This document shows, piece after piece, positions 10,843-22,969 of a DNA stretch of 64,000 nucleotides. How positions within the stretch are numbered: the stretch's first letter is position 1; each line of letters opens with the position of its first letter. This DNA comes from an uncultured Dehalococcoidia bacterium (GTDB taxonomy: Bacteria; Chloroflexota; Dehalococcoidia; Lucifugimonadales; UBA3495), in contig OX638345.1 in NCBI GenBank assembly GCA_951813535.1, positions 3,650,608-3,714,607 on the forward strand, given 5' to 3'. Position numbers and translations under genes: made by a program. The notes beneath the pieces are model-generated. The model saw nothing but the letters and a program-made list of their open reading frames with translations. It did no database searches and was not told the DNA's origin.

Positions 10843-11123
10843 AAAAAATCCCGACCCCGAAGGGACGGGTTTTAATTCCCGCGGTACCACCCTTCTTTTT
10901 CGCGCCCCGCTCATTGCCTGAAATATCCCTGGCGAACGCGCAACGCGAAACTCTTTGTACACAGCCGTTATCGGAGCCGACCCGCTCGCCCTACTCACGC
11001 TGTTGCGCTTCAGCCGAGACGCTCCGGGGCGAGTTCAGCAATTCCGGCCCCCGACTTCCACCAACCGTCGGTTCTCTATGCGGCCTTCCCAGCCTACTAC
11101 TCCCCATCACCGCGATTTAACTG
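10843..11123 (-). promoter_or_regulatory. T-box riboswitch, leucine specifier (CTC) candidate
   Basis: The coding (minus) strand holds the T-box signature AGGGTGGTACCGCG (10880-10893) followed by a terminator stem AACCCGTCCC-TTCG-GGGTCGGG and a run of six T (10843-10870). Upstream is a long stem-I region. In it the loop-E pair AGTA (near 11097) and GAA is directly followed by CTC (minus strand of 11031-11033), the position of the specifier codon, so leucine is the likely amino acid. Uncharged tRNA-Leu would stabilise the antiterminator and switch on ilvBNC-leuA. The T-box identity is secure; the specifier is read by eye. Confidence 0.92.
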
Positions 11124-11663: not shown

Positions 11664-11697
11664 TCGCTCCTATAACTTATTGCGGAGGGCGTACGGT

Positions 11698-14600
11698 ATG
11701 CATTCGATTGTCGATATTTTGAAACCATTCAGGCTCATGGCCGTGGCCCTGCTCATAGTCCTGGCGTCTGTCGTCGGACTGGCGGTTCAAGACCCGCCGG
11801 ACGCGGCGGCTTACGTGGGGTGGATCGACATCGAGTGCAGCGATCACAAGGTGACGGAAGGCGGCAGGTTCCGACTGCACATAATCACCGGGGAACCGAG
11901 CAACCTTCGCGGGGAAACCATCAAGGTGTACTGGACCACCGTTGCCGATACCGCCGACGAAACCGACTACCACGCGCTGCACCGCGAAGGTCAGGCGAGC
12001 AATCGCTACCAGTCCAACGAGGCGCGCATGGGCCGCCACTTCTACACCAAGCAGGACACCTACAGCGAGGATACTGAACACTTCACGGTGTATGCGGTCA
12101 ACGCATCGTCGCACGGGTCCGGCAGCGGCTCATGCCGCATCGCGATAGAAGACGACGATGGCCCGGGAGCGGCGGAGACCTGGATCGAATCGTTGCCGAT
12201 TGCCGGCAAATACCAGCGCGGCGGTCGAATCCGCATCAAGCAACGGTTTACCGAGGAAGTGATAGTGGAAGGTGGGGAAGTCAACCTGGGGCTGCTCCTT
12301 GGCCAGGGCAGCAACGTGGAGCACAAAGGCGCCAGCTACATCAGCGGTTCCGGGACCGACACCCTGACCTTTGAATACACGGTCACCGGTGACGATCTCG
12401 ACATCGACGGCATCGAGATCCCGAACAGCGACTACGGCGGCGACGGCTCCATCCTGACCGAAGCCGACCGCACGGAAGTCAACAGCGAATACCGGGGCAT
12501 CCCAACCGATGTCAACCATTTTGTGTACGGCAGGACCGAGGTGCTGGAGGTGTCCGTCATCTCCTCCCCAGCAGGCGGCGACACCTATCGGATGGGCGAG
12601 CACCTGGAAATCGCGGTGCGGTTCCACCGCGCGGTCCAGGTTAATGGCCGGGTGCATATCGTCCTGCGCATCGGCGATGACGAAGAGGAATGGGCCGGCG
12701 CCTGGTACGATCGCGGTTCCGGCACCGACACCCTGGTGTTCCGGCACGCGGTCCGTGCCGATGACGTCGACACCGGCGGGTTCCGGGTCGTCAACGGTTC
12801 CATTGGTCCCGAGGGACAGAAATATGGTTTCGGCGGCAGTGGGACCATCACCGACCAGGGCGCATCCCACGAGGTGAGCCCCTACTACGACGGGCTGATC
12901 GACCCTTCCGGTTACAAGGTGGACGGGAGGCCCTACATCAAGAGCATCGCCGTCACCTCCACGCCTGCCAATGGGACCCACTACCGGATCAACGACCGGA
13001 TCATGATTTCCGCGACCTTCGACCGGGCGGTCTCGGTGCAGCCAAAACCGGCGTTCACGGTCAGCCTGGGCGATCGGGAAGTGCTGGCTCGCTTTTACGA
13101 CGGTTCGCTCACGGATACGCTGGTCTTCAGCTACAAGGTGGAGGAGGACGACACGGACGCAAACGGTATATCCATCCCGGCCCAAAATGGCTTCCTTGAA
13201 TCCGGCAACATCTGGGAGGCCCGCACCGAACGAACGGTGAACCAGCACATCCCCGCCCTGGCCGACCAGGCGGGGCAGGCGGTGAAGGGTAGCCTGCCTT
13301 CCGTTGTCTCCAGCGCGATCGTCTCCACGCCCAGCCACCCTCGCCAATACCATTTTGGCGAGGATATCGAAATCGCCCTGACGTTCGACGAACCCGTGGA
13401 CGTGTTGGGTACGCCGTCAATACGGATCGAGATGGACCGAAGCGGCCCTCACCGTCGCGATGCGACGTACCGCCGGGGATCCGGCACCGACACCCTTGTC
13501 TTCGTCTACACCGTTCAGGGCGGCGACCTGGACCATACCGGCGTTGCTCTGGTCGAACGGGAGAGTGACGGGTTTGACGGCACCGCGCGAGTTTACCAGG
13601 CGGGCACCGAGAACCAGGCGAACGGCAGGATACCCGGCTTTTCCGATATGTCGGACCACCGAGTTGACGGTCTTCCCCACATCACGGCCAAAGCGGTGGA
13701 ATCAACGCCGGCCCGGCGGGGCATCTACCGCGCTGGTGAGTCCCTCCTGGTCTCGTTGACTTATGACCGGCCGATGGAAGTGTTGGGAAGACCGCCCATC
13801 TATCTGCGAGTCGGCGACGACACTCCTGGCGCCCGCTATCGGAGTGGGTCGGGGACCAACACCATTGTCTTCGGCTACGATGTACAGGCAGACGACCGTG
13901 ACTATGACGGATTCAGCCTGCTCGATTTTCGGGGTGGGTTCCCTCTGAATGACTATATGAAACCGGTCGGCGTTGACATACCTTTTGCGCGGCAGTTCAA
14001 GGGGTTTGGCAGCCAGGAGGGCCACGCCGTCGCCGGCCGGGTCCACATCACCGAGATTGAGGTGATCTCCGAGCCGGGCGAGGATGGCGTATATGAAATG
14101 GGCGACGGCATCGAATTGGCAGTTACCTTTGACGATGAGGTAACCGTGACCGGCACACCCCAACTGACGATGGATTTGGACGGTTCCACGCAGATGGCCG
14201 CGTTCCACGAAGCGCGAAACGCAGCGAGCGGCTCCAGCATGGGCAGCACCGGGGATGCGATGATTTTCAGATACACCGTGCAGACCGCCGATGAAGCTAC
14301 CGACGGCCTGACGGTTGTCCAGGACGCCTTCAGCCTGAACGGCGGGACCATCGTGGACCCGAATGGCAACGAGCCCGACCTGCGCCATGCGGCCAGCACT
14401 TTCGCCGACCACCCGGTGGTGGAGGTCGCGCCGGAGGTTGAAGGAGTGAGGACGTCACAGGATGGTTCGCAAGTGATCATCACCTTCAGCGAGAATGTCC
14501 AGGTGCGGCCGGACTTGCAGACCCTGAGCAGCTTCGCGGGAGTGGACGTTGGGGTCTACCTGCGGGCGCTGATCGACGTGTTTGTCGACGGGCACCGGGC

Positions 14601-15117
14601 GCATACCCACGGGGCGGCCATATCAGGGAAGGAGCTCACACTGACCCTGGACACGGCCATCACGCAGGGGCAGGATGTTGAGGTAGCCTACGACGACTTG
14701 TTTGCCCGGGATGTGCCGGGAGTCATCGTCGACCACGCTGGAAACCCGCTGGAACACTTCTCCAGCCAGACGGTTGCCAACGAGTCGATCCTGCCCGCCA
14801 ACGCCGACGCCAACTGGCCGGTTATCAGCGCGTACAGCCTCACCGTCGCGGAGGGTCAGACGGGGACGTATACGGTGGCGTTGGGGGCCCAGCCGGACCA
14901 GGACGTGACGATATCCCTGTCGATTTCACCTTCCACGCATCTGAGCGCCAGCGCCGAGACGTTGACCTTCACGCCAAATAACTGGGCCACGCCGCAGACG
15001 GTGACCCTCACGGCGGGCACGGACGCTGACGATATCAACTTCTGGCAGGAAATTGTCCACACCGCCGACGTGGACGGTTTCATTGTAGGTCACCTGAAGG
15101 TGCTTATAGAGGAGTAA
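11698..15117 (+). CDS. Large secreted repeat protein with Calx-beta and six internal repeats
   Basis: 1139 residues. The ATG at 11698 follows GGAGGG; a TTG six codons upstream is less likely. A signal peptide is clear (residues 1-38, basic start then MAVALLIVLASVVGLAV). Residues about 40-150 resemble a Calx-beta domain (KVTEGGRFRLHI ... CRIAIEDDD). Six repeats of about 120-130 residues begin near 161, 282, 413, 539, 661 and 783; each holds a S.P....Y..G..I.I...F line, a GSGTDTLVF-type strand and V..DD.D..G. Residues about 910-1035 look like a SwmB-type Ig fold (SQDGSQVIITFSENVQV), and the end (from about 1041) is another beta-sandwich (YSLTVAEGQTGTYTVAL). Acidic, likely calcium-binding; surface adhesion is an inference. 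Confidence 0.8.
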   Translation: MHSIVDILKPFRLMAVALLIVLASVVGLAVQDPPDAAAYVGWIDIECSDHKVTEGGRFRLHIITGEPSNLRGETIKVYWTTVADTADETDYHALHREGQASNRYQSNEARMGRHFYTKQDTYSEDTEHFTVYAVNASSHGSGSGSCRIAIEDDDGPGAAETWIESLPIAGKYQRGGRIRIKQRFTEEVIVEGGEVNLGLLLGQGSNVEHKGASYISGSGTDTLTFEYTVTGDDLDIDGIEIPNSDYGGDGSILTEADRTEVNSEYRGIPTDVNHFVYGRTEVLEVSVISSPAGGDTYRMGEHLEIAVRFHRAVQVNGRVHIVLRIGDDEEEWAGAWYDRGSGTDTLVFRHAVRADDVDTGGFRVVNGSIGPEGQKYGFGGSGTITDQGASHEVSPYYDGLIDPSGYKVDGRPYIKSIAVTSTPANGTHYRINDRIMISATFDRAVSVQPKPAFTVSLGDREVLARFYDGSLTDTLVFSYKVEEDDTDANGISIPAQNGFLESGNIWEARTERTVNQHIPALADQAGQAVKGSLPSVVSSAIVSTPSHPRQYHFGEDIEIALTFDEPVDVLGTPSIRIEMDRSGPHRRDATYRRGSGTDTLVFVYTVQGGDLDHTGVALVERESDGFDGTARVYQAGTENQANGRIPGFSDMSDHRVDGLPHITAKAVESTPARRGIYRAGESLLVSLTYDRPMEVLGRPPIYLRVGDDTPGARYRSGSGTNTIVFGYDVQADDRDYDGFSLLDFRGGFPLNDYMKPVGVDIPFARQFKGFGSQEGHAVAGRVHITEIEVISEPGEDGVYEMGDGIELAVTFDDEVTVTGTPQLTMDLDGSTQMAAFHEARNAASGSSMGSTGDAMIFRYTVQTADEATDGLTVVQDAFSLNGGTIVDPNGNEPDLRHAASTFADHPVVEVAPEVEGVRTSQDGSQVIITFSENVQVRPDLQTLSSFAGVDVGVYLRALIDVFVDGHRAHTHGAAISGKELTLTLDTAITQGQDVEVAYDDLFARDVPGVIVDHAGNPLEHFSSQTVANESILPANADANWPVISAYSLTVAEGQTGTYTVALGAQPDQDVTISLSISPSTHLSASAETLTFTPNNWATPQTVTLTAGTDADDINFWQEIVHTADVDGFIVGHLKVLIEE

Positions 15118-15276: not shown

Positions 15277-17691
15277 ATGCACAATGCACGCAGATTGCGA
15301 CGGTTCGCTGCTGCTTCCCTGCCTTGGCGAGCGATATTCGCCGCGGGCGCCGTCGCCCTGCTGATGACGGTGGTTGCCGCTTGCGGAGGCGGCGAGCCGG
15401 AAACGCCCGCTCCTGCCGCAGCGCCGGCCGCGGGCGAACAACCCACCGCCGCCGCTCCGGCCGCTGCTACGCAGGAAGCGATCACTCTGCAGGTGGTGTG
15501 CATCAACCGCACCCTTCGCCCTTGCGAGCTGATCCGCGATGTCTACGCTCCCAAGGTCAGTGAGCGCACCAACGGCGAGGTTACGATCGAAATTTCGTCG
15601 TACCCCGAGCTCGGTCTCGCCGGCCCCGATACCATCCGCCTGGTCAACGACCAGACGCTGGAGTTTGCCGAGATCTACTCCGGTTACGTGGGCGGTGACC
15701 TTCCTATAATTGACGTAGGCAACCTCTGGGGCCTCTCCCCCAGCAACGATGCCCACCTGGCCCTCACCGACGCCATCGAGGATGACATGATCCGCATCCT
15801 CCGGGACTCCACCGGTGGCGAGCCCATCTTCCGGGCCTACTATCCCAACCAGTACGTCTTCAGCCGCGAACCTCTGCCCGACCTGGGGTCGTACAAGGAC
15901 AAGAACATCCGCCAGCACAGCACCATCCTCGGTGACCTGCTGGCCGGTCTCGACGCCGAGGGTCAGTTCGTGGCCTTCGCCGACGTCTACACGGCCCTGG
16001 AACGCGGCGTGCTGGACGCCGGTATCACCGGCGGCACCCCCGGCTACGGCCAGCGCTGGTACGAGGTTACCGACTACCTCTACGGGCCGATAGTCGGCTC
16101 CATCGGCGTGACCTACGTCACCGTCAACAGCGAGAAATGGGGGGCCCTCAGCGCCGAAAATCAGGCCGTCCTCAAGGAAGTCGGCAAGGAGTACGAAGCC
16201 GAGAACCTCCGCCTGCTCAAGGCGGACTGGGACCCGGCCGGCATCAGCCTCAACGTCGAAGAGGGGATGGAATATTCCGACTTCCCCGACGACGTCAAGG
16301 CCAGGATGCGCGACACCGCCCTGAACGCCATTATTCCCAACTGGGTTGAGCGCGCCGGCGGCCCCAGCTCCGAGGGCGTCAAGATCTTCAACGAAAAGGT
16401 CGGCCCCATCGTCGGCGTGGTCATCAACCCTGATGGCACCGCCAGCGAGACCGAGGCCATGATGATGATGGACAAGGCCGATTGCGGCGATGATCGCGGC
16501 GTCGGCGAAGTCTGCATCAGCATCGTGGACTCGCCCTCCGGCGGCAAGGAAGCCATGGCCTCCACCCAGTGCGACGGCGAGACTGCCGCCAGCGTGCCGG
16601 ACACCCACGGCGGCGGCAGCCCCTCCGGCAAGTCCTGCGGCGTGGAGAGCGGCATCAACTTCGACCTCACCCCGCTGACCTCTTCCGGCGAAAGCTTCGA
16701 GTTCCAGATGGCCTGCATCAACCGCACCCTGGTGGACTGCGGCCTCGCCATCGGCAACTACTCCGAAACCGAGGACATCGGCTTCGTGGAACGCGTCAAG
16801 CGTCGCACCAACGGGCAGGTCGTTTTCGAAATCTCATCCTTCCCCGAACTGGGCATCGCCGGCCCCGACTCGCTGCGCCTCATCGAGGACGGCACGCTGG
16901 ACTCCGCCCAGATCTACTCCGGCTACGTCGGCGGCGACTTCCCCATCATGGACATGAGCAACCTCTGGGGCCTCTTCGCCACTCAGCAGGACCAGTTGGA
17001 CGTCATTGACGCCATCCAGCCCAAGATGGCCGAGGTCACCGCCGAGAACGGCGGCATCCAGATCGCCTACATGATGACGGCCCACAACTACATCTTCGCC
17101 AAGCCCCAGGTCGACGGGCTCGAAGACCTGCAGGGTCTCAAGGTACGCAGCCACAGCACCGTGCTCAGCGACCTGCTGTCCGGCATGGGCGCGGACCCGC
17201 AGTTCATCGCCTTCGCCGACGTCTATACGGCCCTCGAACGCGGCGTCATCGACGGCGCGATCTCCTGCGGCTCCTGTGGACACGGCCTGCGCTGGTATGA
17301 GGTGTCCGACTATCTCGTCGGCCCCATCGTTTCCGTGGGTCACAGCTGGTTCGCCGTCAACGCCGAACGCTGGAACAAGATGCCCAGGGACCTGCAGAAC
17401 ATCGTTCTGGAGGAAGGCGCCCGCCACGCTTACCTGAACCGCCAGCTCCTCTTCGAGCACTTCGCTCCCAACGCCATCGCGCAGAACGTGGAGCAGGGCA
17501 TGCTGGAAGTCCCGTTCACCCCTGAGATGCAAAACGCCCAGCGACAGTCTGCCATCGAGAACGTCGTTCCCGGTTGGGTCGAGCGCGTCGGTGGTCCCAC
17601 TTCCGAAGCGGCGATTATCTTCAACGACGTGGTGGCCCCCATCGTCAAGGTGAAGATCAACCCAGACGGTACGGCGTCGGCCACTGAATAG
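15277..17691 (+). CDS. TRAP transporter substrate-binding lipoprotein with two fused DctP-like domains
   Basis: 804 residues, more than twice a normal DctP (about 330-360). Signal peptide and lipobox end at VVAAC with lipid Cys near residue 36, then a Pro/Ala linker. Domain 1 spans about 70-395, domain 2 about 469-800. Each has the same landmarks: CINR....C at the start, GLAGPDTIRL / GIAGPDSLRL, IYSGYVGGD.PI, the carboxylate-binding Arg strand (IRQHSTILGDLL in domain 1, VRSHSTVLSDLL in domain 2), FVAFADVYTALERGV.D, and the closing NPDGTAS. The linker between domains has four Cys. The protein would sit outside the cytoplasmic membrane feeding the DctQ/DctM pair. Tandem duplication and fusion is the simplest origin. 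Substrate unknown. Confidence 0.9.
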   Translation: MHNARRLRRFAAASLPWRAIFAAGAVALLMTVVAACGGGEPETPAPAAAPAAGEQPTAAAPAAATQEAITLQVVCINRTLRPCELIRDVYAPKVSERTNGEVTIEISSYPELGLAGPDTIRLVNDQTLEFAEIYSGYVGGDLPIIDVGNLWGLSPSNDAHLALTDAIEDDMIRILRDSTGGEPIFRAYYPNQYVFSREPLPDLGSYKDKNIRQHSTILGDLLAGLDAEGQFVAFADVYTALERGVLDAGITGGTPGYGQRWYEVTDYLYGPIVGSIGVTYVTVNSEKWGALSAENQAVLKEVGKEYEAENLRLLKADWDPAGISLNVEEGMEYSDFPDDVKARMRDTALNAIIPNWVERAGGPSSEGVKIFNEKVGPIVGVVINPDGTASETEAMMMMDKADCGDDRGVGEVCISIVDSPSGGKEAMASTQCDGETAASVPDTHGGGSPSGKSCGVESGINFDLTPLTSSGESFEFQMACINRTLVDCGLAIGNYSETEDIGFVERVKRRTNGQVVFEISSFPELGIAGPDSLRLIEDGTLDSAQIYSGYVGGDFPIMDMSNLWGLFATQQDQLDVIDAIQPKMAEVTAENGGIQIAYMMTAHNYIFAKPQVDGLEDLQGLKVRSHSTVLSDLLSGMGADPQFIAFADVYTALERGVIDGAISCGSCGHGLRWYEVSDYLVGPIVSVGHSWFAVNAERWNKMPRDLQNIVLEEGARHAYLNRQLLFEHFAPNAIAQNVEQGMLEVPFTPEMQNAQRQSAIENVVPGWVERVGGPTSEAAIIFNDVVAPIVKVKINPDGTASATE

Positions 17692-17717
17692 CGCAGCGTA
17701 GGCGACTTTCGGAATAT

Positions 17718-17745
17718 GCGGGGGCGGTTCACGAACCGCCCCCGC
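17718..17745 (+). terminator. Hairpin terminator after the first TRAP binding-protein gene
   Basis: GCGGGGGCGGTTC pairs with GAACCGCCCCCGC (13 bp, two-base turn) 27 bases beyond the stop, followed by TGCATTTA. Strong stem, weak T tract. Confidence 0.7.
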
Positions 17746-17824
17746 TGCATTTAGTACGATGCATGGTTGCGCTTTTGCGTTATTCGTTAATGGATTCCCC
17801 TACCTAGGTGCTAATTTGTTTCGA

Positions 17825-17853
17825 TTGACAGCCCTATATGCTTGCTTTAAACT
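17825..17853 (+). promoter_or_regulatory. Sigma-70 promoter of the second TRAP binding-protein gene
   Basis: TTGACA (17825-17830), 17-base spacer, TAAACT (17848-17853). The gene starts 81 bases after the -10. The same TAAACT -10 is used before recA. Confidence 0.75.
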
Positions 17854-17933
17854 CTGACGCCGGTCGCTAAACCCCGAAAAGTGCACGAAAACGCACTCAT
17901 CAGCAGTTGGCAATGCAATCAACTGGAGGGCAT

Positions 17934-20204
17934 ATGTATCCCCGAATCAACGGTGTATTCTCCAGAGTTGGAATGGGCAAATATTTGATGGCTGCCATGC
18001 TCGGCGTGCTCATCGGCGCCCTTGCCGCCTGCGGTGGCGGCGGCGGTGATGCGCCAGCCGGTTCGGGCGATAGCGGCGGCGGGGCCGCGGCTCCGGAATC
18101 CACCGCCATGGTCGCCGCGACGGTCGCCACCGGCGGCGGCGAAACCCAACTGCAATCCCAGGGCCAGAGCTTCGAGTTCCAGCTGGTCTGCATCAACCGC
18201 AGCGTGGCAGCGTGCGAATTGGTCAACAGCTTCTTCGTTCCTGAAGTGGCCAAGCGCACCGACGGCCAGTTGCAGTTCGTCATTTCCTCCTTCCCCGAGT
18301 TGGGCATCGCCGGCGGCGATACCCTCCGCCTGGTCGAGGACAACACTCTGGAGGTGGCCGAAATCTACAGCGGCTACGTCGGTGGCGATCTGCCACTGTT
18401 GGACATCGGCAACCTGTGGGGCCTCTCCCCCAGCGAGGAGGCCCATCTGGAGCTGTCCGACGCCATCCACGAGGACCTGATCCAGGTGCTCAAGGAGACC
18501 ACCGGCGGACAGCCCATCATGCGCCAGTACTATCCCAACCAGTTCATCTTCAGTCGGGACGAGCTGGACGCGCTGGAACAGTTCGACGGCAAGCAGATCC
18601 GCCAGCACAGCACCATCCTGGGTGACCTGCTGGCCGGCCTCGGCGCCGAGGGTCAGTTCGTGGCTTTCGCCGACGTGTACACCGCCCTGGAGCGCGGCGT
18701 GCTGGACGGCGGGGTGACCGGCGGCGAGCCGGGGCACAGCCAGCGCTGGTACGAGGTGACCGACTACCTGTATGGCCCCATCGTCGGCTCGGTAGCGGTG
18801 GCGTACTACACCATGAGCAGCGATTCCTGGAACAAGCTGCCTCCGGACCTTCAGCAGATTACCCTGGAAGTCGGAAGCGAGTACGAAGAACTGGCGCGGA
18901 AGACCCTCATCGAAGATTGGAACCCCTTCAGCGTCTCCGCCAACGTTGACGCCGGCATGATTCACCGGCCCTTCAGCGACGAGGTTCAGTCCAAGATGCG
19001 CGAGGTGGCCCTGGAGGTCATTCTGCCCAACTGGGTGGAGCGCACCGGCGGCCCCAATAGCGACGCCGTTCAGCTCTTCAACGAGAAGGTCGCCCCCATC
19101 ATCGGCGTGGCGGTCAACCCGGACGGCACCGCCAAGGAACTCGACGGGGCCATGATGCCTGCTGCCGCCTCCAGCGATGCCACCATGGCCTCTCAAACCC
19201 AGTTGGTAACTCAGGGCGAGAGCTTCGAGTTCCAAATGACCTGCATCAACCGCACCGTTGCCCCGTGCGAGCTCCTGACCAACTTCTTCATACCTGAAGT
19301 TGCCGAGCGCACCAACGGTCAGGTCCAATTGGAGGTCTCCTCATATCCTGAGCTGGGTATCGCCGGCCCGGACACTCTCCGACTGGTGGGCGACAACACC
19401 CTGGAACTTTCCATAATCTACAGTGGATACGTGGGCGGCGACCTGCCGATCCTCGATATCGGCAACCTGTGGGGCCTCTCCCCCAGTGAGGAGGCCCACC
19501 TCGCCCTCGCCGACGCCATCGACGAGGACTTGATCGCCGTGCTGCAGGACACCACCGGCGGCCAGCCCATCCTGCGGCAGTACTACCCCAACCAGTTCCT
19601 CTTCAGCCGCGATACCCTGCGCACTGTCGCCGACTTCGAGGGTAAGAAGATCCGGCAGCACAGCACCGTGCTGGGCGATCTGCTGGCGGGACTGGGCGCG
19701 GAGGGCCAGTTCGTGGCCTTCGCCGACGTGTACACCTCGCTGGAGCGGGGGGTCATGGACGCCGGCGTTACCGCGGGCGAAGCCGGATACAGCCAGCGCT
19801 GGTACGAGGTTACCGACTACTTGACCGGTCCCATCGTAGGCTCGGTGGCTGTCGCCTACTTGGTGATGAGCGGTGACCGCTGGGATACCCTTCCGCCCGA
19901 CATTCAGCAGATCATGCTCGAAGTGGGCAAGGAATACGACGATCTGGCTCGCAAGACCCTGATCGAGGAATGGAACCCCTTCAGCATCAGTGCCAACGTT
20001 GAAGTCGGCATGATCCACGAGCCATTCTCCGACGAGGTACAAGCGCGTATGCGGGAGATTGCCCTCGACGTCATCCTGCCCAACTGGGTGGAGCGCACTG
20101 GCGGCCCGGACAGCGACGCGGTGAAACTCTACAACGAGAAGGTCGCCTCCATCCTCGGCGTAATTATCAACCCTGATGGCTCCGCCAGCGAGACCGCGCC
20201 ATGA
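17934..20204 (+). CDS. Second TRAP substrate-binding lipoprotein with two fused DctP-like domains
   Basis: 756 residues from the ATG at 17934, which follows GGAGGG; a TTG nine codons upstream is less likely. Lipobox LIGALAAC with the lipid Cys near residue 34, then a Gly/Ala/Ser linker. Domain 1 covers about 75-405 and domain 2 about 427-750, with nearly the same sequence: both have CINR....CEL, LDIGNLWGLSPSEEAHL, QYYPNQF.FSRD, the Arg strand IRQHST.LGDLLAGLGAEGQ, QRWYEVTDYL.GPIVGSVAVAY and LPNWVERTGGP. The two halves are closer to each other than those of the preceding paralogue, so duplication here may be later or homogenised. The two Cys at each domain start could form a disulfide. Feeds the DctQM permease downstream. 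Confidence 0.9.
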   Translation: MYPRINGVFSRVGMGKYLMAAMLGVLIGALAACGGGGGDAPAGSGDSGGGAAAPESTAMVAATVATGGGETQLQSQGQSFEFQLVCINRSVAACELVNSFFVPEVAKRTDGQLQFVISSFPELGIAGGDTLRLVEDNTLEVAEIYSGYVGGDLPLLDIGNLWGLSPSEEAHLELSDAIHEDLIQVLKETTGGQPIMRQYYPNQFIFSRDELDALEQFDGKQIRQHSTILGDLLAGLGAEGQFVAFADVYTALERGVLDGGVTGGEPGHSQRWYEVTDYLYGPIVGSVAVAYYTMSSDSWNKLPPDLQQITLEVGSEYEELARKTLIEDWNPFSVSANVDAGMIHRPFSDEVQSKMREVALEVILPNWVERTGGPNSDAVQLFNEKVAPIIGVAVNPDGTAKELDGAMMPAAASSDATMASQTQLVTQGESFEFQMTCINRTVAPCELLTNFFIPEVAERTNGQVQLEVSSYPELGIAGPDTLRLVGDNTLELSIIYSGYVGGDLPILDIGNLWGLSPSEEAHLALADAIDEDLIAVLQDTTGGQPILRQYYPNQFLFSRDTLRTVADFEGKKIRQHSTVLGDLLAGLGAEGQFVAFADVYTSLERGVMDAGVTAGEAGYSQRWYEVTDYLTGPIVGSVAVAYLVMSGDRWDTLPPDIQQIMLEVGKEYDDLARKTLIEEWNPFSISANVEVGMIHEPFSDEVQARMREIALDVILPNWVERTGGPDSDAVKLYNEKVASILGVIINPDGSASETAP

Positions 20205-20386: not shown

Positions 20387-20415
20387 TTGACTTTTATCAG
20401 ACCGGCCAATATAGT
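20387..20415 (+). promoter_or_regulatory. Sigma-70 promoter of the TRAP permease genes
   Basis: TTGACT (20387-20392), 17-base spacer, TATAGT (20410-20415), 117 bases before the DctQ start. It lets permease and binding proteins be transcribed separately. Confidence 0.75.
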
Positions 20416-20531: not shown

Positions 20532-21203
20532 TTGACTACACCATCCGCGGCACCCCCCACGCCGGTTTTCCTGACCCGATTTATCTACAAGATCGACGGT
20601 GCCCTGGACTGGGTTTACCGCATCTTTGGGTATGTCTGCGGGTCTCTCCTGCTGCTCCTGGGCATCTACATCACCTACCAGGTTATTGTCCGCAAGATCG
20701 GCGGTCCGGTGCTGGGCAACCAGGAGCTGGTCGGCGGGTACATCCTCGCTTTTGCCGGCACCTGGGCGTTTTCCTACTCCCTGCGCACCGGCTCTCACGT
20801 CCGCATTGACGTTCTGCTGCCGCTCTTCGCGCGCATCCATCCCTACCTGCGCTCGGCGGCGGACTGGCTGGCCCTCGGGTCCGTAGGCTTTTTCGGCCTG
20901 ATAACCGCTATCAAATCCTGGGAAGAAGTCGCCGAGTCCAAGTGCATCCGCACCAACTCCGAAGGCATGTGCGAGCCGGCCCTGGCCAACACCTATCTCA
21001 TCGGAAACTTCTTGCCCGAGCTCTGGATGTTCCAGATGATCGTCGCCATCGGCTTCACCATGCTTGCCTTCACTTCGTTCCAGTGGATGCTGAGCATGAT
21101 TCTGCGTGGTCTGCTCGAGATCTGGCACAAGAGATCAGGCGGCGACGTGGCCGAGCTTGCTCCCGGAGCCGACGTCATGCAGGAAGCCGCTTCCGGAGTG
21201 TAG
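20532..21203 (+). CDS. TRAP transporter small permease subunit (DctQ type)
   Basis: 223 residues. The best start is TTG at 20532, six bases after GGAGG; the open frame nine codons longer has no ribosome site. Four hydrophobic segments fit the DctQ four-helix fold: near residues 28-48 (IFGYVCGSLLLLLGIYITY), 64-82, 105-125 and 168-195. The family line ...GNQELVGGYILAFAGTWAFSYSLRTGSHVRIDVL is present around 60-95. A loop of about 30 residues with two Cys (SKCIRTNSEGMCEP) is inserted before the last helix. It pairs with the large subunit 84 bases downstream. Sodium-driven uptake of a carboxylate is the family role. Confidence 0.85.
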   Translation: MTTPSAAPPTPVFLTRFIYKIDGALDWVYRIFGYVCGSLLLLLGIYITYQVIVRKIGGPVLGNQELVGGYILAFAGTWAFSYSLRTGSHVRIDVLLPLFARIHPYLRSAADWLALGSVGFFGLITAIKSWEEVAESKCIRTNSEGMCEPALANTYLIGNFLPELWMFQMIVAIGFTMLAFTSFQWMLSMILRGLLEIWHKRSGGDVAELAPGADVMQEAASGV

Positions 21204-21286: not shown

Positions 21287-22969
21287 ATGGCAATCATCGC
21301 CGCTTTCAGCATGATGGGAGTTTTCTTCCTGATCGGCCTCTACGTCGCCGGCGCCCTCGGTGTGCTGTCCCTGGTGATGATGCAGGCGTTCTCTGATGCC
21401 CCGCTGTGGAACATCCTCGGCAACAAGGCATGGGAGAGCAACACCAACTTCATCCTGGTTGCGGTTCCCCTCTTCCTGCTCATGGGCGAGCTCATGCTCC
21501 GCTCCGGCATGGGCGAGCGCATGTATGGCGCCCTTTCCCGGTGGCTGGTGTTCCTGCCCGGCGGCCTGCTCCACACCAATATCGCCTCCTGCGCAGTCTT
21601 TGCGGCCTGCTCCGGCTCCAGCGTCGCCACCTCCGCCACCATCAGCCGCGTCTCCCTGCCGTCCTTCCGCCAACGCGGGTATAGCGAGCGCCTCGTCATT
21701 GGATCCCTGGCCGCCGGCGGTACCCTGGGCATCCTCATCCCGCCCAGTATCGGTCTGATCATCTTCGGCGTGCTGGTCGAGGAATCCATCGGCCGCCTCT
21801 ACATGGGAGGTTTCCTGCCCGGCTTCCTGCTCGCGTTCACCATGATGCTCATGATGATCGTAACGTCGGTCATCCTGCCTCGCACCGCGCCGATGGACGA
21901 GGAGGTACGCCGCCTTTATCGCGCCTGGTTCCACGGCATAGCGGTTCGACGTTACTCCGAAGAGCAGATGAGCGTAATGCGCCAGGAGCAGGCTACCGAG
22001 GCTGGCCTCACCGATCCTGAAGAACGCGCCGCCTACCGACGCGGCCGCTCCACCCTTTCGTATCCCGAGGCTATCGCCGAATGGCTGCGGATGATCAAGG
22101 AAGCGACCGTGGGCCTGCTGGCCATCATCCCGGTTTTGATCATCATCATCGTGGTGCTGGGGTCCATCTACACCGGCTGGGCTACGCCCACCGAGGCCGC
22201 CGCGCTGGGCGTGTTCGGCGCGCTGGTTGTGGCCATCGCCAACGAGTTGTTCAAGCGTTCCCAAGGCGTCTATACGGACTGGAACCAATCCATGCGCGGC
22301 ATCAAGGTTATGCTCCTGGATGCCATCATCTCCACCGTACGCACCTCGTCGATGATCATGCTCATCGTCATGGCGGCGTTCACCCTGAGCTTCGCATTCG
22401 CCCGCCTCGGCATCTCCCAGGACATCTCCGAGTGGATCACCGGCCAGAACCTCAACGCTCTCCAGTTCGTGATCATCCTGGTGTTCTTCTACCTGCTGTT
22501 GGGCACCTTCATGGAAAGCTTCGCCATGCTGGTGACCACCATCCCCATCCTCGCACCCTCCCTGGAAGCCGTGGGCGTTGACCTGGTGTGGTTCGGCATC
22601 ATCATGGTGATCCTCGTCGAGGCCGCACTCATCAGCCCGCCCGAGGGCATCAACCTCTACATCCTCCACGGCGTGAGACAGGACGTCGACGCGCAGATGG
22701 CGGAACAGACCGCGGCGGCACAGGAGGCGTTACGAGAAAGTACGATCACCGACGTGTATATCGGGGTCTTACCATTCATGGGCTGCATGGCTTTGGTGAT
22801 AGCACTTTTGTTCGCGTTCCCCGACATCGCCCTGTGGGCCCCGTGCATCATCTACGACGATCCCAGCAGGGATTTCCTGCAATCGGTCAACATCGAACGC
22901 GATGCCGCCGGCTTCTGGGAGCAAATCCGATACTGCTCGTCGGAGTTCCGACCCCGGGCGTACCAGTAG
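21287..22969 (+). CDS. TRAP transporter large permease subunit (DctM type)
   Basis: 560 residues; typical DctM is about 430. Hydrophobic throughout, with the family signatures GSSVATSATIS (near 105), GTLGILIPPSIGLIIFGVL (near 145) and the C-terminal GTFMESFAMLVTTIPILAP (near 405). Two additions explain the length: a charged cytoplasmic segment of about 70 residues (MDEEVRRLYRAWFHGIAVRR ... near 197-265) and a C-terminal extension of about 60 residues after the last helix. It is the ion-coupled transport channel. The upstream AGGA is rather far from ATG at 21287. Works with the DctQ-type protein and the double binding proteins. Confidence 0.9.
   Translation: MAIIAAFSMMGVFFLIGLYVAGALGVLSLVMMQAFSDAPLWNILGNKAWESNTNFILVAVPLFLLMGELMLRSGMGERMYGALSRWLVFLPGGLLHTNIASCAVFAACSGSSVATSATISRVSLPSFRQRGYSERLVIGSLAAGGTLGILIPPSIGLIIFGVLVEESIGRLYMGGFLPGFLLAFTMMLMMIVTSVILPRTAPMDEEVRRLYRAWFHGIAVRRYSEEQMSVMRQEQATEAGLTDPEERAAYRRGRSTLSYPEAIAEWLRMIKEATVGLLAIIPVLIIIIVVLGSIYTGWATPTEAAALGVFGALVVAIANELFKRSQGVYTDWNQSMRGIKVMLLDAIISTVRTSSMIMLIVMAAFTLSFAFARLGISQDISEWITGQNLNALQFVIILVFFYLLLGTFMESFAMLVTTIPILAPSLEAVGVDLVWFGIIMVILVEAALISPPEGINLYILHGVRQDVDAQMAEQTAAAQEALRESTITDVYIGVLPFMGCMALVIALLFAFPDIALWAPCIIYDDPSRDFLQSVNIERDAAGFWEQIRYCSSEFRPRAYQ

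Follow-up and report, generated by a model that had tools for sequence, protein, structure and literature searches.

Two adjacent genes in the window, which is the whole 64,000-nucleotide stretch of DNA that was analyzed, encode lipoproteins, named A and B, that each contain two complete TRAP substrate-binding domains of the DctP type. The substrate-binding proteins (SBPs) of TRAP transporters are usually monomeric, 300-350 amino acids long and built from a single SBP unit (PMC12344293), and SBP dimers and fusions of the SBP to the small permease subunit (P-Q fusions) are rarities (PMC12344293, PMC5812351, PMC8276074, PMC1839085). The chains described here (756-804 amino acids) hold two units, not the usual one, and each unit taken alone is of normal size. 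The domains differ in ancestry, and separate promoter-like sites precede gene B and the permease genes. No two-domain DctP protein was found described in the literature; double-headed receptors are a known idea in one other transporter class, but no earlier description was found for the TRAP class.

Genes and Domains

The sequence-only reading had proposed two adjacent lipoproteins of 804 and 756 residues with two full domains each. The coordinates (Table 1) bear this out, as do two matches apiece to the Pfam DctP profile (PF03480; E values of 3e-46 and 1e-49). The whole-protein scores are 158 and 170 bits, spread over two stretches per protein, and every domain singly scores above the curated cut-off. 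Scores above 150 bits against PF03480 for both proteins, together with the conservation of A1, A2 and B1 from genome to genome, place the double-DctP pattern far beyond chance. For gene B the ATG at 17934 (GGAGGGCATATG) is the preferred start; the longest open reading frame begins at a TTG at 17907 and would give 765 amino acids. Genes for DctQ (PF04290) and then DctM (PF06808) directly adjoin A and B downstream.

Table 1. Features of the two-domain TRAP locus, in window coordinates.
Feature	Position	Strand	Evidence
Gene A, two-domain DctP lipoprotein, 804 aa, lipobox VAAC	15277..17691	+	ORF, profile, landmarks
Domain A1, TGG-loop class	15484..16464	+	profile, identity, tree, loop alignment
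A linker, ~78 aa, four Cys, kept across the genus, omega about 0.2-0.3	16465..16698	+	
Domain A2, CxxC-loop class	16699..17688	+	profile, identity, tree, structure match
SCGSC in A2, where the ligand-site loop of A1 reads TGGTP	17263..17277	+	landmarks, alignments
GC hairpin, strong, immediately downstream of gene A, lacking a clear T run, z -2.6	17718..17745	+	
Promoter-like site before B, TTGACA-17-TAAACT, 10/12	17825..17853	+	recurs in related loci
Gene B, two-domain DctP lipoprotein, 756 aa, lipobox LAAC	17934..20204	+	ORF, profile, landmarks
Domain B1, TGG-loop class	18174..19154	+	profile, identity, tree, structure match
B linker, about 25 aa, without Cys	19155..19226	+	
Domain B2, B1-class in the window, CxxC-class in orthologous proteins	19227..20201	+	identity, alignment, tree
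Promoter-like site before DctQ, TTGACT-17-TATAGT, 10/12	20387..20415	+	recurs in related loci
DctQ small permease, 232 aa	20505..21203	+	profile
DctQ two-Cys loop, genus-specific, between TM3 and TM4, probably extracellular (inferred topology)	20934..21020	+	
DctM large permease, 560 aa, genus-specific charged insert and Cys-bearing C-terminal tail	21287..22969	+	

The landmarks that had been claimed for all four domains were located in both proteins. With B counted in the 765-residue frame, CINR is at A75/A480 and B95/B446, R[QS]HST at A212/A624 and B232/B583, and FADVYT at A234/A646 and B254/B605. The Arg strand is retained in all four domains, and the R of IRQHST/VRSHST aligns with the ligand-carboxylate Arg of known SBPs. 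Pairwise identities are 48% for A1-A2, 61% for A1-B1, 62% for A1-B2, 51% for A2-B1, 50% for A2-B2 and 77% for B1-B2; A2, at 48-51% identity to the other three, is indeed the most diverged domain, as had been noted earlier.

Between genomes, omega is 0.03-0.12 for A1, A2 and B1 and about 0.2-0.3 for the A linker. These three domains are under strong purifying selection and, therefore, A and B are working genes. Window B2 has no ortholog for a between-genome comparison, and its omega of 0.18 was measured against window B1. The Cys pairs of the A linker (16465-16698) are lost together in genomes G009 and G007, which suggests that they form disulfides.

The host genome is a single contig of 4.38 Mb, and its complete DctP complement consists of five domains in three proteins. 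In the third protein (C, 551 amino acids), the one DctP domain is preceded by a long N-terminal extension. Extensions of about 170 to more than 300 amino acids, bearing the motif GPGAIYVGD...L.GP, were observed at the N terminus of single-domain SBPs in loci L098 (6510-8165) and L126. Directly upstream of gene A is a gene for a large repetitive surface-type protein of 1145 amino acids (11680-15117), whose match to SWM_repeat is weak and does not reach the Pfam cut-off. Elsewhere in the window, a T-box leader (10858-11119, minus strand) lies upstream of ilvB in a branched-chain amino acid gene cluster.

Predicted Structure

AF2 models of mature A and B were built on a shallow 16-row alignment. 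Two globular domains appear in both the B model (mean pLDDT 77, pTM 0.49) and the A model, a low-confidence one (mean pLDDT 67, pTM 0.46) with a disordered linker. Solved TRAP SBPs match both halves of the B model, at residues about 2-317 and 354-667, over about 300 residues, with best Z scores of about 30 for domain 1 and about 27 for domain 2. In the A model, A2 aligns to TRAP SBPs at 406-727 (Z about 25, about 300 residues), and the 50 best structural alignments all fall on A2 only. The models thus predict a Venus-flytrap fold for B1, B2 and A2, and the sequence of A1 would imply the same fold. The earlier claim that each half is a full TRAP domain therefore stands for all four domains by profile and Arg strand, with the predicted fold as further support in the case of B1, B2 and A2. 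The low pTM values would fit two domains without a fixed orientation, but this is weak evidence of flexibility because the alignment had only 16 rows.

Binding Loops and Possible Ligands

Domains A1, B1 and window B2 have T-G/A-G-x-P/A-G after a conserved (V/L)D, and the same alignment columns hold SCGSC in A2 and SCGTC in the B2 domains of relatives. Single-domain relatives have TCGPC or TCGSC in these columns and so the CxxC loop is a clade trait. The sequence-only reading took SCGSC to be added to A2. This has to be corrected: the motif takes the place of TGGTP as a CxxC variant of the ligand loop, with no insertion, and its clade-wide occurrence rules out an addition unique to A2. Aligned with 4nn3, the loop comes after the strand whose SiaP counterpart contains an Asn in contact with the ligand.

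Protein A and most of the relatives' B proteins have one TGG-loop domain and one CxxC-loop domain. The presence of two loop classes in one protein would suggest two ligand preferences per protein, and the earlier proposal that the sites differ finds support here at the level of aligned sequence. However, both domains of window B are of the TGG class, so that the description of two pocket classes per protein fails for window B itself.

The pyroglutamate binders 2pfy, 2pfz and 6wgm are among the best structural matches; their identity is 15-20%, and matches whose Z scores lie within 1 of each other count as ties. A profile search for PxpA (PF03746) did not find it in six of the related genomes. 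Pyroglutamate is a weak lead at most, and we name no ligand because of the low identity and the missing PxpA.

Distribution Among Genomes

The genomes compared are designated by G-numbers, with G000 being the window's own genome. The named relatives are metagenome-assembled genomes (MAGs) labeled SAR202 cluster bacterium bin87, Dehalococcoidia bacterium and Chloroflexota bacterium. Several of the related MAGs presumably come from sponge metagenomes, and we take this uncultured lineage to be often sponge-associated.

In-frame two-domain SBPs are present in nine of the 14 genus genomes (G000, G001, G003, G004, G007, G009, G010, G012 and G194). The copies of gene A in G002 and G006 are interrupted, G008 has a fragment at a contig end, G005 has fragments only and G011 has single-domain SBPs only. 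The interruptions in G006 and G002 (L089, L090) are a stop or a change of frame and could be either MAG errors or decay. One genome of a sister genus, G205, has its own 888-amino acid tandem and apparently a second one at a contig end.

A 400-genome sample of the phylum, with up to five DctP candidates scored per genome, contained 70 DctP-bearing genomes, and two full DctP matches in one frame were found only in the window's own. No two-domain DctP protein was found in eight other Chloroflexota genomes in which every candidate was scored; two long DctP frames in these genomes, when read through, were single-domain. Nor was one found in the best 60 of 749 plasmid records with a match, none of which covers more than about 1.1 kb. 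Two-domain DctP proteins are, therefore, rare within the Chloroflexota genomes and plasmid matches examined, and the architecture is as unusual as had been supposed: in the Chloroflexota genomes and the best plasmid matches it is a lineage trait, confined to the window's genus and one sister-genus genome.

Some genomes are rich in SBP genes. For example, DctP matches number 19 in G224 and 15 in G225, compared with five DctM matches in each, and locus L110 (G225:C1:2873000-2889000) is a run of five single-domain TRAP SBP genes, with neither DctQ nor DctM detected within its 16 kb.

Origin of the Two-Domain Proteins

In the domain trees, A1 is sister to B1, A2 forms its own clade and the relatives' B2 domains form another. 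The A2 class occupies slot 2 in A and in a 918-925-amino acid protein of G001 and G012, and its nearest kin is in slot 1 of an 812-amino acid protein of G007. The class of the relatives' B2 occupies slot 2 of B; in the trees it falls together with domain 1 of the 918-925-amino acid protein. G007 also has an 845-amino acid B1-A2 chimera. The linker of the G205 tandem reads GGPGAIYIGDINQLVGP...ANLTNPTELVS, a sequence that single-domain SBPs of sister genera have as their N-terminal extension, and is, judged by this match, a gene-fusion signature. In the sister genera, single-domain SBP genes lie side by side in rows of three to five. Among the two-domain relatives the linker varies from 14 to 90 residues.

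The idea of a covalent tandem dimer, if understood as one duplicated unit, does not hold for A, which joins two different paralogous classes; with A1 and A2 in different clades, a simple internal duplication of one domain is ruled out for this protein. Because the classes recur in different slots, the G205 linker equals an SBP extension and the sister genera have rows of SBP genes, the sequences point to paralogous genes having been repeatedly fused and reshuffled, and not to repeated internal duplication.

The second domain of window B has its own pattern. Slot 2 of B is of the CxxC class in five related genomes, and window B2 is of the B1 class and branches outside all B1 sequences. A clade of window B1 and window B2, a group named after the tree had been seen, was rejected (p-AU 0.02), and the identity of the two at four-fold sites is just 0.51. 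These two values do not favor a recent gene conversion from B1 to B2. Acceleration may be an alternative account of the tree and the site identity.

Permease and Expression

Separate promoters, as proposed earlier, are plausible because the predicted promoter-like sites before B and DctQ have similar counterparts in several related loci and a strong hairpin follows gene A. The hairpin is possibly a terminator or a processing or attenuation element.

The DctQ Cys loop, the charged 55-residue DctM insert and the DctM tail are absent from the same-order permeases aligned. These extras are not simply a dock for tandem receptors, since G011 has the permease features with an adjoining single-domain SBP and the DctM frames of G205 (506-520 amino acids) are, by length, too short to include the insert and the tail.

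The host genome has two DctM genes, and the window's is the only one found with DctQ and SBP neighbors. The other (L124 5460-6962, which is G000:C1:218459-219961) has no DctQ or SBP gene among the neighbors checked; DctM matches that score like it recur in most of the genus genomes. The earlier claim that four sites feed one DctQM pair is a reading from gene order. It agrees with the A-B-Q-M layout of the window and three related loci and with the single DctM so placed, but in G001, G007 and G009 the SBP genes do not directly adjoin DctQM.

Comparison with Known Systems

Proteins A and B share with DctP-type SBPs (PF03480; SiaP, DctP6/DctP7, IseP) the fold, the Arg strand, the lipoprotein or secreted receptor form and the cluster with DctQ and DctM; they differ in having two units per chain and the conserved CINR....C pair. 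Other unusual TRAP SBP architectures are the P-Q fusions (rare, PMC8276074), in which the SBP is joined to DctQ, and the elongated TAXI SBPs (BP0403), which have extra non-SBP domains (PMC12344293), whereas A and B each join two DctP domains. TakP-type SBPs also present two TRAP sites per receptor particle. However, TakP is a non-covalent dimer held by a long swapped C-terminal helix (PMC1839085), and no such helix follows either domain in the models of A and B.

We would take the GlnPQ-type ABC importers (Lactococcus lactis) as the closest working model. These also have SBP domains in series connected by a linker, and the specificities of the tandem domains differ; the domains work largely independently of each other, and the rate at which they deliver to one translocator depends on linker length (PMC8025302). 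Different specificities serving one translocator are what we propose for A and B. The GlnPQ domains are fused to the ABC membrane protein, whereas A and B are separate lipoproteins and the TRAP permease is a secondary transporter.

Proposed Function and Alternatives

On balance, we think it probable that A and B are flexible, lipid-anchored two-domain receptors derived by fusion, whose domains independently serve one DctQM and widen its specificity. Fusion and later swapping of the lineage's paralogous single-domain SBP genes would have produced A and B, each with two Venus-flytrap DctP domains per lipid-anchored chain. Each domain would bind small carboxylate-type ligands independently, and the two would alternate in delivery to the single DctQM encoded downstream. 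Fusion would thus widen specificity and double the capture per membrane anchor in a cell assumed to be without a periplasm. An extended version, a modular multi-site system in which fused SBP domains of different classes are shuffled like exchangeable parts and the permease, which has additional extracellular elements, docks two-headed receptors and takes up several substrates via one DctQM, we hold to be rather doubtful.

Alternatively, the four domains might all bind the same ligand, and fusion would only add sites per anchor and raise the local concentration near DctQM. Window B, with its 77% identical domains of one loop class, would fit such redundancy, as would the Arg strand kept in every domain. 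However, A pairs long-separated classes with TGGTP and SCGSC at the ligand position, and the relatives' B proteins do likewise; we regard redundancy as unlikely but a serious contender. A covalent version of the TakP model, in which the tandem stays on DctQM, the ligand passes from outer to inner domain and the Cys loop and tail act as docks, appears improbable. Such a route was proposed for dimeric TakP (Gonin 2007, PMC1839085), and among the permeases compared only those of the genus have the DctQ loop and the DctM tail, but G205 has a tandem with short DctM frames, G011 has the permease features beside a single-domain SBP and the swap helix is missing from the models. Hardly any weight is given to one large or two-ended ligand that bridges both domains. 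Each chain does have two full clefts, but the linkers of 25-80 residues, with that of A predicted to be disordered, their variable length among relatives and the usual small-acid-site Arg in each domain all stand against bridging.

Significance

The TRAP norm is one SBP per permease, and multiple or fused receptors raise the question of what they do for a secondary transporter. This genus provides a natural series of two-domain receptors, three- and four-site loci and single-domain relatives in which the effects of site number and class on TRAP transport can be followed. Two-domain receptors may be part of the explanation for the capture of dilute organic acids by SAR202-type bacteria, which grow slowly and are often associated with sponges.
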